From contig NZ_SMAF01000016.1 of NCBI RefSeq assembly GCF_004343305.1, positions 1 to 64,000 on the forward strand: DNA of 64,000 nucleotides, read 5' to 3'. Of this stretch, positions 25,500-31,100 are shown one piece after another. Made by a program: the position numbers and the translations under genes. Every line of letters starts with the position of its first letter. Within the stretch, counting starts at the first letter, position 1. Below the pieces are notes generated by a model that worked only from the letters and a program-made list of their open reading frames with translations, searched no databases and was not told where the DNA came from. The stretch comes from Pseudofulvimonas gallinarii (GTDB lineage Bacteria; Pseudomonadota; Gammaproteobacteria; Xanthomonadales; UBA2363).

Positions 25500-25571
25500 G
25501 CGGCTCAGCAGGCATGCGGTCGCGCTCGTGCATACTCGCCAACCTTGTGACGTGATGCCGGTGTGACCCCG

Positions 25572-27464
25572 ATGCGCCTGTTCTCCTTCTTCGAGCGGCT
25601 GGTCGATCCGTATCCGCCGGCCCCGCCGGTGGTGCCGCCGCGCGGTTTCCTGCCGTTCGTGATGCATTACTCGCGGCCGATGCTGCCGCTTCTGGTCGTG
25701 ATCGCGGTGCTGACCGCGATGGTCTCGGTGGTCGAAATCGCCTTCTTCGATTTCATGGGCAGCCTCGTCGACTGGCTTGGCGCCACGGATCGCGAGTCGA
25801 TGTGGGACCAGCACGGCCATCGCTTGCTGCTGATGGCGGCGCTGGTGGTGCTCGGCCACCCGCTGCTGGTGTTCACGCATTCGCTGCTGCTGCACCAGGG
25901 CCTGTTCGGCAACTACCCGATGCGCATCCGCTGGCTGGCGCACCGGCACCTGCTCGGCCAGAGCCTGGGCTTTTTCCAGGACGAGTTCGCCGGACGCGTC
26001 GGTGCCAAGGTGATGCAGAGCGCGCTGGCGATCCGCGAAACCGTCATCAAGCTGCTTGATGTCTTCGTCTACGTCGCCGTCTATTTCATCGGCACCGCGG
26101 TGCTCGTCGGTCGCGCCGACGGCTGGATGGTCCTGCCGCTGCTGGGCTGGCTGGCCGGCTACATCACGATCCTGGCCGTGTTCGTGCCGCGCCTGCAGCG
26201 CATCGGTGCCGCGCAGGCCGATGCGCGCGCCGAAATGACCGGCCGCATCGTCGACAGTTACACCAACATCCAGACCGTCAAGCTGTTCGCCCACAGCCGC
26301 CGCGAGGAAGCCTACGCGCGTGACGCGATGCAGGGATTCATGGACACCGTGCACCGGCAGATGCGCATGGTCACCTGGTTGAACCTGTGCCTGCATTCTC
26401 TCAACGGCCTGCTGCTGGGCGGCATCGGTGCACTGGCGATCTTCGCCTGGCAGGCCGGTTCGACGTCGCTGGGCGCCGTCGCGGTGGCGATTGCGCTGGT
26501 GCTGCGCATCCGCGGCATGTCGGAGTGGATCCTGTGGGAAGTGGCCGGCCTGTTCGAGAACATCGGCACCGTGCAGGACGGCATGAATACGCTGACCCAG
26601 CCGCCGGCCGTCGTCGACGTGCCCGGCGCACCCGCACTCGCCGTCAGCCGCGGCGGCATCCGCTTCGAGGCGGTGAAGTTCCATTACGGCGAGCGCGTGC
26701 AGGTTTTCGACGGACTGGACCTGCACATCCAGCCCGGCGAGAAGGTCGGCATCGTCGGCCGCTCCGGTGCCGGCAAGTCGACGCTGGTGAACCTGCTGTT
26801 GCGTTTCTACGACGTCAACGGCGGGCGCATCCTGATCGACGGCCAGGACATCGCCACGGTCAGCCAGGAATCGCTGCGGCAGGCGATCGGCATGGTCACG
26901 CAGGATACCTCGCTGCTGCACCGCTCGATCCGGGACAACATCGCCTACGGCCGACCCGATGCCGACCAGGCGGCGGTCGAGCGTGCCGCCCGCCAGGCCC
27001 ATGCCGATGCCTTCATCCCGGATCTGGTCGATGCCAAGGGCCGGCGTGGCCATGACGCCCATGTCGGCGAGCGCGGCGTCAAGCTCAGCGGCGGCCAGCG
27101 CCAGCGCATCGCGATTGCGCGCGTACTGCTGAAAGATGCGCCGATCCTCGTGCTCGACGAGGCGACCTCGGCGCTGGATTCGGAAGTGGAGGCGGCGATC
27201 CAGGAGCAGCTGTACACGCTGATGGAAGGCAAGACGGTCATCGCCATCGCGCATCGCCTGTCCACCATCGCGGTGCTGGACCGCCTGGTCGTGATGGACG
27301 GGGGCCGCATCGTCGAATCCGGCAGCCACGAGGAACTGCTGCGTGCCAATGGCCTGTATGCGGCGCTGTGGCGTCGCCAGTCCGGCGGCTTCCTCGGCGT
27401 CGATCCGGAAGCCCCTCCGGCGCAAGCGCAGGACAGCGTGCAGGCGGGACCGGCCGTGCCGTGA
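25572..27464 (+). CDS. ABC exporter, fused membrane and ATPase domains (MsbA-type)
   Basis: 630 residues; GTG 25563 is an alternative start three codons earlier. Six transmembrane helices span about residues 30-330. The ATPase has Walker A GRSGAGKSTL near 396, signature KLSGGQRQRIAIAR near 504, Walker B ILVLDEATSALD near 524, and switch His in IAIAHRLS. Type IV exporters act as homodimers moving lipids, drugs or peptides out. It has no C39 leader-peptidase domain. The stop overlaps the GNAT start by four bases (GTGA), and the borosin-like genes follow in the same direction; it could export their product, but close relatives may occur without those genes. Confidence 0.93.
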   Translation: MRLFSFFERLVDPYPPAPPVVPPRGFLPFVMHYSRPMLPLLVVIAVLTAMVSVVEIAFFDFMGSLVDWLGATDRESMWDQHGHRLLLMAALVVLGHPLLVFTHSLLLHQGLFGNYPMRIRWLAHRHLLGQSLGFFQDEFAGRVGAKVMQSALAIRETVIKLLDVFVYVAVYFIGTAVLVGRADGWMVLPLLGWLAGYITILAVFVPRLQRIGAAQADARAEMTGRIVDSYTNIQTVKLFAHSRREEAYARDAMQGFMDTVHRQMRMVTWLNLCLHSLNGLLLGGIGALAIFAWQAGSTSLGAVAVAIALVLRIRGMSEWILWEVAGLFENIGTVQDGMNTLTQPPAVVDVPGAPALAVSRGGIRFEAVKFHYGERVQVFDGLDLHIQPGEKVGIVGRSGAGKSTLVNLLLRFYDVNGGRILIDGQDIATVSQESLRQAIGMVTQDTSLLHRSIRDNIAYGRPDADQAAVERAARQAHADAFIPDLVDAKGRRGHDAHVGERGVKLSGGQRQRIAIARVLLKDAPILVLDEATSALDSEVEAAIQEQLYTLMEGKTVIAIAHRLSTIAVLDRLVVMDGGRIVESGSHEELLRANGLYAALWRRQSGGFLGVDPEAPPAQAQDSVQAGPAVP

Positions 27465-28000
27465 AGTCGCCGGTCCTGTCAACGGGTCCATTGCGCCTGC
27501 GGGCGCTGGGGAGACGTGACCGGCGCTTCTATGCGCGCATCTACGCCGACCTGGCCTTGATGTCCCGTGTCGGTCCGCCCCTCGACCGGCGTGCCGGCCT
27601 GCGCAGCGCCGACGCCCTGCTCGCGTCCATGCACGGGCCCGCGCCGCGCGCGCATTGCTGGACCATCCTGCTGGGTCCGGCGCGACGGCGTATCGGCCTC
27701 GTCGGCTGGCGCGTGCAGGCGGCGGACATCGAACTGGGCGCAATGCTGTTGCCCGCGTGGCAGGGACAGGGATGGGCGGTCGCCGCATTGCGTCGCGTCT
27801 GCGCCGAGCTCATCGAAAACCAGGGCGCCCCACGCCTTTTGATGCGTTATCGTCCGGGACATGAAGCCGCCGCATCGGTATGCCGGCGATTGCGATTCAC
27901 GGAGCGGCCGGAGTTGACGGACGAAGCAGGTCGCCGCGTCTGGACTTTGAGTGCGCAGGCATGGAGGGGCGCCACTTCGTCAGCCGATGAAGTATCGTAA
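27461..28000 (+). CDS. GNAT-family N-acetyltransferase
   Basis: 179 residues starting at GTG 27461, overlapping the exporter stop (GTGA), so translation is coupled. The order fits the RimJ/RimL-like branch: LRLRALGRRDRRFYARIYAD, then IGLVGWRVQAADIELGAMLL, then the acetyl-CoA loop LPAWQGQGWAVAALRRV, and ARPEL-like end strand LRFTERPELTDE. Substrate unknown. Its stop is 24 bp before the methyltransferase start, so it belongs to the same transcript and could N-acetylate the peptide product or its precursor, or act on something unrelated. Confidence 0.8.
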   Translation: MKSPVLSTGPLRLRALGRRDRRFYARIYADLALMSRVGPPLDRRAGLRSADALLASMHGPAPRAHCWTILLGPARRRIGLVGWRVQAADIELGAMLLPAWQGQGWAVAALRRVCAELIENQGAPRLLMRYRPGHEAAASVCRRLRFTERPELTDEAGRRVWTLSAQAWRGATSSADEVS

Positions 28001-28024: not shown

Positions 28025-28831
28025 ATGGCCGCCAACGGCAGACTGGCCTGCGTGGGACTCGGCATGTTGCTGGGTGGCCACCTGAGCCCGCGCGCCGAGG
28101 CCGAAATCCGGTCAGCCGACGTCGTGTTCGCCGCCGTGTCGGATCCGCTGGTCGAGCTGTGGGTCGAGGACATGCACGCCGACGTGCGCAGCCTTCAGTC
28201 CTGTTATGCCGAAGGCAAATCGCGCCACCGCACCTACGACGAGATGCTTGCCCTGATCATGGCCGAACTGCGTGCCGGCCGACGTGTGTGCGGCGTCTTC
28301 TATGGCCATCCCGGCGTGTTCGCACGCATGCCGCACCGCGCTGTCGCGCTGGCCCGCGCGGAAGGCTTCGCCGCCGTGATGGAGCCGGGAATTTCCGCCG
28401 AGGACTGCCTGTACGCGGACCTCGGCATCGATCCAGGCGAGGTCGGTTGCGCCCATTTCGAAGCCAGCCAGTTCCTGCTCTACCGCCGCAGGATCGACCC
28501 GTCCGCCTACCTGGTGCTGTGGCAGGTCTCGCTTGCGGGCGACCGCAGCCATCGGCGCTATGCCAGCGGCAGGGCGCACCGCGCGTTGCTGGTGGACCGG
28601 TTGTCGGAGGATTATCCGCTGGACCACGCGGTCACCCTCTACGAAGCGGCCACGCTGGCCATCCAGCGGCCGCGCGCCGACGTGCTGGCGCTACGTGACC
28701 TGCCCGACGCTGAATTGCGCTTGCAATCGACCCTGGTCTTGCCGCCCGTGCATGCACTGCGGCCCGATGCAGGCATGATGTCCCGCATTGCCAGGCTGGA
28801 TGAAGTCGATCCGGCGCCGGCGGCGGGTTGA
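28025..28831 (+). CDS. Borosin-type peptide backbone alpha-N-methyltransferase (split form)
   Basis: 268 residues, SAM-dependent methylase of the tetrapyrrole-methylase fold. N-terminal VGLGMLLGGHLSP replaces the GxGxG SAM motif. Blocks shared with the fungal borosin enzyme OphMA are VFAAVSDPLVELWVEDM, CYAEGKSRHRTYDEM (with Tyr61, Arg67 and Tyr71 as candidate active-site residues), GVFYGHPGVFARMPHRAVAL, MEPGISAEDCLYADLG and FEASQFLLYRRRIDPS. It ends near residue 268 with no fused leader or core, so it is the split type, as in Shewanella SonM. ATG 28025 has GGGAGA five bases upstream. The cognate precursor follows after 37 bp. Role: iterative methylation of backbone amides of the precursor core. 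Confidence 0.9.
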   Translation: MAANGRLACVGLGMLLGGHLSPRAEAEIRSADVVFAAVSDPLVELWVEDMHADVRSLQSCYAEGKSRHRTYDEMLALIMAELRAGRRVCGVFYGHPGVFARMPHRAVALARAEGFAAVMEPGISAEDCLYADLGIDPGEVGCAHFEASQFLLYRRRIDPSAYLVLWQVSLAGDRSHRRYASGRAHRALLVDRLSEDYPLDHAVTLYEAATLAIQRPRADVLALRDLPDAELRLQSTLVLPPVHALRPDAGMMSRIARLDEVDPAPAAG

Positions 28832-28868
28832 TGTGTCGTGTCACCCCTATCAAACGAAGGAGTACCAG

Positions 28869-29135
28869 ATGTCGAATGTCATCCGTTTACTTGAGTCGCT
28901 GGGTCGCGAAATCGGTGCCGGAGCGGTGGATTCCGCGGAATTCGCGAGCCGGATGGAAACCCTGGACCTGGCCCCCGCGTTGCGCGCGGCGTTGATGGGG
29001 GGCGACGTCGCCGCACTGTCGGCGGCCCTCGGCGGACGCACGACCATGATGATGGTGCTCGCTCCCGCCGAGCCCGATGGCGAGCAGCCGCAGGAGGACG
29101 AGAAGCCCGACAGCGAGGTGCGCGCTGCCGCCTGA
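28869..29135 (+). CDS. Split-borosin precursor peptide (leader/binding domain plus core)
   Basis: 88 residues; AAGGAG lies seven bases before ATG 28869. Residues 1-55 match the helical borosin-binding domain layout seen in SonA: IRLLESLGREIGAG, a middle helix with EFASRMETLDLAPALR, then ALMGGDVAALSAALG. Residues 57-88 are the likely core, RTTMMMVLAPAEPDG followed by an acidic Pro/Glu/Asp tail ending SEVRAAA. The hydrophobic MMMVLAP segment (60-66) is where backbone N-methylation is expected. No Cys, Ser or Trp is present in the core, so other RiPP chemistries are unlikely. No second copy was found nearby. Function of the product unknown. Confidence 0.85.
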   Translation: MSNVIRLLESLGREIGAGAVDSAEFASRMETLDLAPALRAALMGGDVAALSAALGGRTTMMMVLAPAEPDGEQPQEDEKPDSEVRAAA

Positions 29136-29183: not shown

Positions 29184-31100
29184 ATGAGGCATCGTGATCT
29201 TGCCGGTCGGCTCCTGCTGGAGCCGACGCGTCCTCCCGACGAGGCAGCCGGACCGGCCAGCACACAGGTTTGCCTGCGCTGGCCGGTTCCGCCGCGCGGC
29301 CCGTTGCTGACCCGGCTGCTGGCACTGCTGCTGGGTCTTTTCATTCCGGCCGCGCTGTCCGTTGCGGTCGTGCCGGATGAGTTCGATGCACTGCTGCGTC
29401 GTGCCGACGACGTCAAGTCGGCAGACCCCCGGGCGTTCCGTTCAATGCTTGAACGGATGGAACAGCTGACGTCCGCGGCTTCGCAGGTCCAGCTGGAGCA
29501 GCTGCGTTACCTGCAGATATACCGCATGTCGCTGGACGGACAGTTCCCGCAGGCGATTGCCGCGCTGCGGGAGCTGGCGACGGAAGCGACCGACGTATCG
29601 ACGCGTTTCCGCGCCACGGCATTCCTCGCCAACAACTACGCGGGGACCCGGGATTTCGCGGCCGGGCTGGATGCATTGAACCAGGCACTGGCGATGCTTC
29701 CCGCCATCGAGGACACCAACATCCGGCACCAGGGTTACCTCGCCGCTGCCATCCTCTACAACCAGGCCGGCCAGTACGACCTTGCGCTTCGCTACGTCGA
29801 TATCACCCTCGGCGAGCCGGCAAGCGGACGCAGCCGCTGCATTGCCGGCATCATGCGGCTGGAAGCCCTGTTCGCCCTGGGCCGGCTGCCCTCGGATGCC
29901 CGTGGCCTGGACGGCAGTGTCGAGGAGTGCGAGCGGCATGGCGAACAGCTGCTCTCGGAATTCGTCCGCGGCTTCCAGGCACGCGTCCTGTTCAACGGCG
30001 GCGATGCGGCCGCTGCGGCGCGGCTGCTCGAGAGCCGCCTAGACGCCGTCGCAAGCTCCGAATACCCGCGACTCATTGCCGAACACCACGCCTTGCTGGC
30101 GGAAGCCCGGCTGGCGCTCGGCGATGCCGCAGCCGCGCGGCGGCACGCCCAGCGCGCGATCGACGCCAGCGAGGGCGTGGAATTTTCGTTGCCGCTGGTG
30201 ACCGCCTTTCGCGTCCTCTCGCGTGAGGCGGAGATGCGCGGGGATGCCGCCAGTGCGCTGGCGCACCACCGGCGCTGGGCCGCCGTCGATCGCGCCTATA
30301 TCGACGATATCAAGGCGCGTGAACTGGCCTACCAGCTGGCCCAGCACGACAGCCTGCAGAAGACGCATACCATCGAGCTGCTCAACCAGCGCAACAAGCT
30401 GCTGGAGCTTGAAAGCGAGGTCAACAAGCAGGCCGCCAACAACAACCGGCTGGCGATCGCGATGCTGGTCGTGCTGCTGGCGTCCATCGCGCTGTGGGCC
30501 TACCTCACCAAGCGCGAGCAGTTGCGGTTCCGTCGCCTCGCGCAGACCGACGCGCTGACCGGCATCAGCAACCGCCTCTACTTCAGCGAGCGCGCACCGC
30601 AGATCCTCGAGGAATGCGCGCAACGCGGTCGCCCCGCGGCGCTGGTCATGTTCGACCTGGACGCTTTCAAGTCGATCAACGACCGCCACGGTCACGCCTG
30701 CGGCGACTGGGTGCTGGCCGAGGTGGCCCGCCGAGTGAGTGCGCTGTGCGGGGAGGGCGACCTGTTCGCCCGCCTGGGTGGCGAGGAATTCGCGATCCTC
30801 CGTGCCGGCGCCGACGTGGAAACCGCACTGGTGCTGGCCAACCGCTGCCGCGAGGCCATTTCATCGATCGATACGTCGCTCGCCGGCCCGCGCTTTTCCG
30901 TCAGTGCCAGCTTCGGCGTGGCGATGGCCGCGCCTTCGCCCGGCGGCAGCCTGGATGCGCTGCTGATCCACGCCGACATCGCGCTGTATTGCGCCAAGTC
31001 CGAAGGCCGCAACCGCGTCAGCGTGCATGGCGTGGCGGAGTGCCCGCGCTCGCCGGACGGGACGCCGGCGAACAGCCCGTCACCGCCGGCGAAGGCCTGA
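29184..31100 (+). CDS. Membrane TPR protein with C-terminal GGDEF (diguanylate cyclase)
   Basis: 638 residues. A signal/anchor region (LLTRLLALLLGLFIPAALS) near 38-56 is followed by periplasmic TPR-like helical repeats (about 65-400), a coiled-coil (SLQKTHTIELLNQRNKLLEL), one transmembrane helix (AIAMLVVLLASIALWAYLT, about 423-442) and a cytoplasmic GGDEF domain with active-site GGEEF near 531. The inhibitory I-site RxxD is replaced by GEGD, so product feedback is likely lost. It makes c-di-GMP from two GTP. The first ATG (29184) is 48 bp past the precursor stop and may be co-transcribed; a later start is possible. Confidence 0.88.
   Translation: MRHRDLAGRLLLEPTRPPDEAAGPASTQVCLRWPVPPRGPLLTRLLALLLGLFIPAALSVAVVPDEFDALLRRADDVKSADPRAFRSMLERMEQLTSAASQVQLEQLRYLQIYRMSLDGQFPQAIAALRELATEATDVSTRFRATAFLANNYAGTRDFAAGLDALNQALAMLPAIEDTNIRHQGYLAAAILYNQAGQYDLALRYVDITLGEPASGRSRCIAGIMRLEALFALGRLPSDARGLDGSVEECERHGEQLLSEFVRGFQARVLFNGGDAAAAARLLESRLDAVASSEYPRLIAEHHALLAEARLALGDAAAARRHAQRAIDASEGVEFSLPLVTAFRVLSREAEMRGDAASALAHHRRWAAVDRAYIDDIKARELAYQLAQHDSLQKTHTIELLNQRNKLLELESEVNKQAANNNRLAIAMLVVLLASIALWAYLTKREQLRFRRLAQTDALTGISNRLYFSERAPQILEECAQRGRPAALVMFDLDAFKSINDRHGHACGDWVLAEVARRVSALCGEGDLFARLGGEEFAILRAGADVETALVLANRCREAISSIDTSLAGPRFSVSASFGVAMAAPSPGGSLDALLIHADIALYCAKSEGRNRVSVHGVAECPRSPDGTPANSPSPPAKA

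Follow-up and report, generated by a model that had tools for sequence, protein, structure and literature searches.

A split-borosin precursor with a Met-rich patch and an acidic tail is encoded beside a predicted periplasmic TPR-GGDEF diguanylate cyclase

Introduction

What becomes of a small protein that carries three Met in a row and then runs into an acidic tail? In the 64,000-nucleotide stretch of the Pseudofulvimonas gallinarii genome analyzed here (the window), such a protein is encoded between a predicted peptide methyltransferase and a diguanylate cyclase. The original prediction described it as a borosin precursor with its core behind the binding domain and took the Met triplet and the acidic end as signs of either a different product or a follower segment. 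The locus thus raises two questions: which part of the precursor would become the product, and what that product would be for. In the open-access split-borosin papers that we found, a role of the product was not stated.

Results

The locus comprises the following features, all on the forward strand (+):

27461..28000, +, GNAT acetyltransferase, possible accessory (PF13302, Acetyltransf_3), directly 5' of the methyltransferase gene
28025..28831, +, predicted alpha-N-methyltransferase, SonM homologue (TP_methylase PF00590; phmmer SonM 7ltc E 5e-66)
28857..28862, +, Shine-Dalgarno-like AAGGAG in the sequence, ~7 nt before the precursor ATG
28869-29132 (stop 29133-29135), +, split-borosin precursor ORF, 88 aa
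28869..29036, +, predicted borosin binding domain (leader), residues 1-56 (AlphaFold helices; realignment to SonA, OphA/dbOphMA)
29037..29045, +, R-T-T linker between leader and patch, residues 57-59; relatives often have GGR or similar
29046..29066, +, predicted core MMMVLAP, residues 60-66 (conserved pattern; position as SonA core)
29067..29132, +, acidic tail, predicted follower, residues 67-88, ending EVRAAA (composition kept in relatives; disordered in the model)
29184..31100, +, partner: predicted periplasmic TPR sensor, TM and GGDEF diguanylate cyclase with GGEEF (PF00990; TPR model)

The precursor gene starts ~38 nt past the stop of the methyltransferase gene and ends ~49 nt before the cyclase gene. 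With adjacent, separate genes for methyltransferase and precursor, the window locus is a split borosin locus of type IV-like organization, and at the search thresholds used, the genome contains one SonM-type methyltransferase and one such precursor. The best solved-structure relative of the methyltransferase is SonM, while OphMA/dbOphMA match at E ~1e-46 to 1e-48. Its residues Y61, R67, Y71, and Y93 correspond by alignment to SonM Y58, R67, Y71, and Y93 and are invariant in 103 of 103 loci; mutation of these SonM residues is described as lowering activity (PMC8429565). As judged by homology, the enzyme thus appears to be of the SonM kind with its active-site residues in place, as in type IV. 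In the 398 genomes of the order Lysobacterales that made up our genome set (named match: Lysobacter niastensis), a homologue was found in 204 (E up to 1e-30).

The genes further upstream are less constant. A GNAT match precedes the methyltransferase in 17 of 82 related and 4 of 20 divergent stretches, and the enzyme encoded at 27461-28000 could acetylate the N terminus of a released peptide. An ABC transporter of the MsbA/TIGR02204 type lies at 25563-27464, apparently in the same operon; it was ruled out as a dedicated exporter because it was matched in only 1 of the 82 related stretches. De novo clustering of neighbors, which was crude (it took the longest ORFs greedily, left the methyltransferase unpicked in L045 and L100, and had antisense ORFs among its clusters), revealed no further conserved gene, including no exporter, protease, transporter, or immunity-like gene. 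Shewasin A reportedly cuts a borosin precursor; a search for the pepsin-like protease family PF00026 gave no match in the window's own genome, but 14 control genomes were equally silent, so that this negative carries no information.

The precursor itself matched no family in Pfam or NCBIfam, and phmmer against the PDB gave no convincing relative (best E 0.99). Thus, we turned to structure prediction and structure search. The AlphaFold model, built from three sequences (mean pLDDT 67.7, ~80 over residues 11-50), contains five helices (3-16, 22-31, 36-44, 47-53, and 56-59) followed by disorder. Foldseek returned 29 weak matches (E at least 2.8), 19 of which are borosin proteins by description. 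Upon realignment, all 16 entries listed were borosins, with SonA at the top (7ltc_D: Z 4.8, rmsd 9.6, 66 residues aligned; 9ch1_D: Z 4.6, rmsd 2.5, 51 aligned) and OphA/dbOphMA among the best. The model therefore predicts a five-helix borosin binding domain at the start of the precursor, with modest scores (Z 4.6-4.8). SonA is described as having a leader at 1-53, a linker at 54-61, and a core at 62-71 that is N-methylated at L63 and I65. The patch M60-P66 of the window lies at about the position of this core, and the core of the window precursor is accordingly predicted directly after the binding domain. We consider it very probable that the protein is a borosin precursor with its core at ~60-66, and the leader fold and the conserved patch described below both agree with the original prediction in this respect. 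No signal peptide was found in the precursor.

Residues 57-88 (29037-29132) start with RTTMMMVLAPAEPDG and continue into the acidic Pro/Glu/Gln/Asp tail (R57-TT-MMM(60-62)-VLA-P66-AEPDGEQPQEDEKPDSEVRAAA88), just as anticipated. The tail is indeed acidic (eight D+E in residues 67-88, counted by eye), but not up to its very end as had been claimed, since it closes with S-E-V-R-A-A-A. The final 30 residues contain 27% D/E as compared to a median of 7% in the neighboring ORFs of relatives (n=149), 1.3% of which reach at least 27%. The acidic tail is not a matter of chance composition.

To see which of these parts is conserved, we compared 108 distinct precursors. An iterated profile had identified binding-domain ORFs in 117 of 145 loci; ten further precursors were added, and five SonA-like ones (L134, L141, L143, L144, and L145) were excluded. 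The set includes fragments (for example, L078 8033-8210), and the profile may miss divergent precursors, as several of family f8 were found by eye only. By regex, 43 of the 108 carry a polar P-Q-x-x-Q patch (class B), leaving 65 class A candidates. The pattern phi-phi-(C/M)-phi-phi-phi-P followed by acidic residues was present in 56 of the 65, as compared to at most 14 in 300 shuffles. The third position in these 56 matches is C in 35, M in 8, F in 7, L in 4, and A in 2, with the register off by one in some. The nine candidates that do not carry the pattern include short or partial ORFs and others with different patches. An earlier, looser regex for the class A core was dropped because of false matches, such as those in L024 and L076. 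Examples of the patch are MICMLFPADD (L013), MMCVLVPAEDDE (L117), LVCVLFPDDDDED (L149), and MMMVLAPAEPDG in the window, and Met/Cys-rich patches such as MMCLIAP, MMMMLFP, and MICMLFP are typical of the set. The idea that the Met triplet marks a different product thus found no support, as such patches are usual in the clade.

Past the core, the median D/E fraction is 0.46, as compared to 0.16 ahead of it (n=55), and in 91 of the 108 precursors, at least 25% of the final 30 residues are D/E. Together with the pattern matches, these values indicate that a residue pattern is conserved in the core, whereas conservation of the tail is limited to its composition and does not extend to its sequence. 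Both parts are therefore conserved, each in its own manner; conservation of the acidic stretch alone, which would have spoken against the original prediction, was not what we found. In L149, L151, and L154, just five to eight residues follow the core, and the SonA-like precursors of other families in the order (L134, L141, and L143-L145) have no acidic tail at their end. Repeated patches were found as CCLLVPAQVRCLLVPG in L072 and FVALMPPFSAALMPAFSVALMAPISASLVAP in L190, as well as in L077 and L078; the repeat unit is the patch, with P as its last residue. Because the unit ends in P and SonA is tail-less, a follower segment outside the core is the best reading of the acidic stretch and was one of the two options originally raised. 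It may solubilize the greasy core, hold it in the channel of the methyltransferase, or mark the precursor for a protease. The Met patch and the acidic tail are thus features of the clade; modification is to be looked for at residues 60-66, and removal of the tail is expected.

Several precursors show further peculiarities. The L190 precursor (reverse strand, ORF 6216-5656, 186 aa) lacks an acidic tail and has about five patches such as FSAALMP in tandem; two further precursors and a methyltransferase are encoded next to it. Three or four tandem precursors with differing patches occur near one methyltransferase in L018, L077, L078, and L190. In the tail of L103 (5363-5789), DEEEIR recurs with short, variable hydrophobic stretches and GGDK behind it, as if a constant spacer separated several small units. 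The motif [DE]x[VI]R is found near the C terminus of the tail in 10 of 108 precursors, as compared to at most 5 in 500 shuffles; its carriers are the window (29115-29132), L013, L015, L019, L022, L027, L094, L102, L103, and L125.

The most informative part of the locus, which was absent from the original prediction, is the TPR-GGDEF partner. In each of the 82 related stretches of the order (81 if L002 and L039, which appear to be the same place, are counted once), the methyltransferase gene is followed on its own strand by a gene for a homologue of the 29184-31100 product. Among 20 stretches of more divergent families, L146-L155 and L159 have the cyclase downstream, and L156, L157, L158, L160, L161, and L162 have it upstream; L163 gave a match to the GGDEF domain only, and L164 and L165 gave none. 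A SonA-like precursor precedes the cyclase in L156, L157, L158, L161, and L162. In L157 (reverse strand), cyclase and methyltransferase form a single 821-aa ORF (cyclase match 38-569, methyltransferase match 579-818), and similar fusions are present in L129 (same genome as L157), L131, L133, and L140. The fusion ORFs read signal peptide, TPR, TM, GGDEF, and methyltransferase, with the SonA-like precursor of L157 just upstream. A different arrangement occurs in L143, L144, and L165, where a 540-aa ORF consists of two tandem borosin-type methyltransferase domains with a SonA-like precursor upstream; no TPR-GGDEF gene was found at the tandem locus of L165.

As the window's own genome contains 24 GGDEF places, linkage of a cyclase to the locus is not expected by chance. 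Using the TPR part as a query, we obtained a match in 187 of 398 genomes (E up to 1e-10). In raw counts that ignore kinship, methyltransferase and TPR part co-occur in 176 genomes, the methyltransferase is alone in 28, the TPR part is alone in 11, and neither is found in 183. Some of the 28 (G125, G351, G363, G010, and G047) have a more distant TPR-GGDEF protein, fused or upstream.

Analysis of 148 partner ORFs revealed a TM segment before the GGDEF domain in 146 and a hydrophobic N-terminal segment as well in 117; in the examples inspected, the latter resembles a signal peptide. Because of these two segments, the TPR part is predicted to be periplasmic. The GG[ED]EF motif is kept in 100 of 100 partners identified (102 stretches). 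The TPR model (pLDDT 90.9) matches the Rap/NprR/AimR fold, and its best VIA-align matches include two Bacillus Rap-peptide complexes and NprR (Rap/NprR Z 21-23). A phage Rap with pheromone (Z 23.2) is, however, tied with LGN (Z 22.6), as TPR superhelices resemble one another. Thus, the TPR fold permits peptide binding but proves none. Mean p-distance is highest for the TPR part (0.63), followed by the GGDEF domain (0.48) and the methyltransferase (0.32). In Mantel tests, which show joint descent only, the methyltransferase correlates with the TPR part at r 0.87 and with the GGDEF domain at 0.85, and so the TPR part does not stand out.

Last, we looked at cyclases located away from the methyltransferase. 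For the pair without METHYLTRANSFERASE, 31 cyclase loci (L166-L196) were chosen as not near a listed methyltransferase; a methyltransferase was nevertheless present in six of these stretches, which were treated separately, leaving 25. A binding-domain precursor lies directly 5' of the cyclase in 20 of these 25, and 19 of the 20 precursors have at least 25% D/E in the last 40 residues. The five loci with no precursor are L166-L169 and L175, of which L166, L168, and L169 come from genomes with no methyltransferase match. In 24 chosen whole genomes, our searches located 38 sites that encode a binding domain and 40 that encode the TPR part. A cyclase gene follows within 1.2 kb at all 38 precursor sites, and a precursor precedes 35 of the 40 cyclases. 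Two of the five remaining cyclases (G281:C14 and G325:C7) belong to genomes with a methyltransferase, and that of G325:C7 begins 181 bp past a methyltransferase match. In whole-genome searches, a precursor was found in none of three genomes with a cyclase but no methyltransferase and in none of five genomes with neither. The precursor/TPR-GGDEF gene pair is therefore near-obligate, also away from the methyltransferase. With pairing in 38 of 38 cases, even where the methyltransferase is elsewhere, the question of what the product does becomes the question of whether the peptide controls the cyclase.

Discussion

The reading that we favor, to which we give an even chance as a whole, is that the paired receptor-cyclase binds the methylated core as its ligand and that the tail is a follower. 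Through its five-helix binding domain, the precursor would dock on the product of the adjacent upstream gene, the methyltransferase, which would methylate backbone amides within the Met/Cys-rich hydrophobic patch M60-P66, with P66 and the acidic tail bounding the core. Both the binding domain and the follower would then be removed by proteolysis, and the released peptide would serve as the cognate ligand of the neighboring periplasmic-TPR/GGDEF sensor and thereby control c-di-GMP. From what is known of the borosin family, we infer methylation of the patch; its sites, cleavage, export, ligand binding, and the effect on c-di-GMP are likewise inferences. The link between peptide and TPR-GGDEF as ligand and receptor is plausible, though we hold it at slightly below even. 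Export may be passive and aided by N-methylation, which can help peptides to cross membranes (PMC8429565). N-methylation might thus replace an exporter for the hydrophobic class, less obviously for class B, whose polar patches (43 of 108) fit passive crossing poorly. Also counting against the ligand are the lack of a signal peptide in the precursor, of a conserved exporter or protease gene nearby, and of a recognized precursor at 5 of 40 cyclases.

A different view, which we regard as unlikely but worth weighing, is that this is an ordinary split borosin with a product that acts outside, as an antimicrobial or in metal binding, and that the cyclase is a linked regulator of production rather than a receptor. 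Known fungal borosins are cytotoxic or nematicidal, Met/Cys-rich cores could bind metals, and operon linkage alone does not show binding; yet the cyclase tracks the precursor and not the methyltransferase (20 of 25 methyltransferase-less loci; 38 of 38 precursors), and neither a transporter nor an immunity-like gene is conserved. The data rather suggest that the peptide is a signal than an antibiotic.

It is less probable still that the precursor, by itself or with the methyltransferase, is an intracellular protein partner of the cyclase, with tail or leader as the active part and no export. The predicted position of the sensing TPR part across the membrane argues against it, as does the repetition of the core patch in some precursors, which is expected of released products. 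The fusions, which place the methyltransferase at the cytoplasmic face, and the absence of a signal peptide and of a linked exporter or protease gene would fit such a partner. That the acidic tail, or the E-E-I-R repeat at its end, is the product and the hydrophobic patch only steers the enzyme is very improbable: the DEEEIR-phi repeats of L103 with their variable stretch and the excess of [DE]x[VI]R over shuffles speak for it, but tail sequences are unconserved and down to five to eight residues in L149, L151, and L154, the 186-aa precursor of L190 carries several copies of the patch and lacks an acidic tail, and SonA methylation falls at the patch position.

Extending the ligand reading to the order, we tentatively propose that its split borosins are backbone-N-methylated signals, that every precursor has a dedicated c-di-GMP-producing TPR receptor in the periplasm, and that a single methyltransferase can mature several such pairs scattered around the chromosome; this is somewhat less likely than not to hold in full. 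If true, it would be a Gram-negative counterpart of Rap-Phr signaling, built on a modified peptide and a second messenger. Control of the adjoining cyclase by the peptide would tie modified-peptide chemistry to the c-di-GMP control of lifestyle and offer many natural ligand/receptor pairs to compare. In the open-access literature, we found no paper that links borosins with TPR proteins or peptide signaling, and a search for borosin and GGDEF gave Xu et al. 2024 only, which is a weak sign of novelty. Neither a receptor-like pair that occurs independently of the methyltransferase nor the signaling proposal turned up in these open-access searches, and both may be new. Xu et al. list borosin types 0-XI, and because "GGDEF" is explained in the legend of their Fig. 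1 as a domain of some borosin architecture, a borosin-GGDEF link is at least hinted at in print (PMC11395268).

Among known systems, the locus shares with SonM/SonA of Shewanella oneidensis (PMC8429565) a separate homologous methyltransferase with the same active-site residues, a five-helix leader, and a core right behind it. It differs from this type IV split borosin in that SonA ends with its core (62-71), whereas the window precursor has a 22-residue acidic tail and a Met/Cys-rich patch. With OphMA/dbOphMA, it shares the homologous methyltransferase and the leader/clasp fold; there, the core is fused to the methyltransferase, in contrast to the split arrangement with an acidic follower in the window.

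The partner resembles the RRNPP systems (Rap-Phr, NprR-NprX, and AimR) in its TPR superhelix (Z 18-23) and in that the precursor gene adjoins the receptor gene, as found for 38 of 38 precursors and 35 of 40 receptors in the 24 genomes. RRNPP receptors are cytosolic and have other outputs. In the window, by contrast, a periplasmic location is predicted for the TPR part and N-methylation for the peptide, c-di-GMP is the output, and the precursor lies upstream of the receptor. Because of the predicted periplasmic location of its TPR part, the partner would work like an RRNPP receptor rather than be a member of that family.
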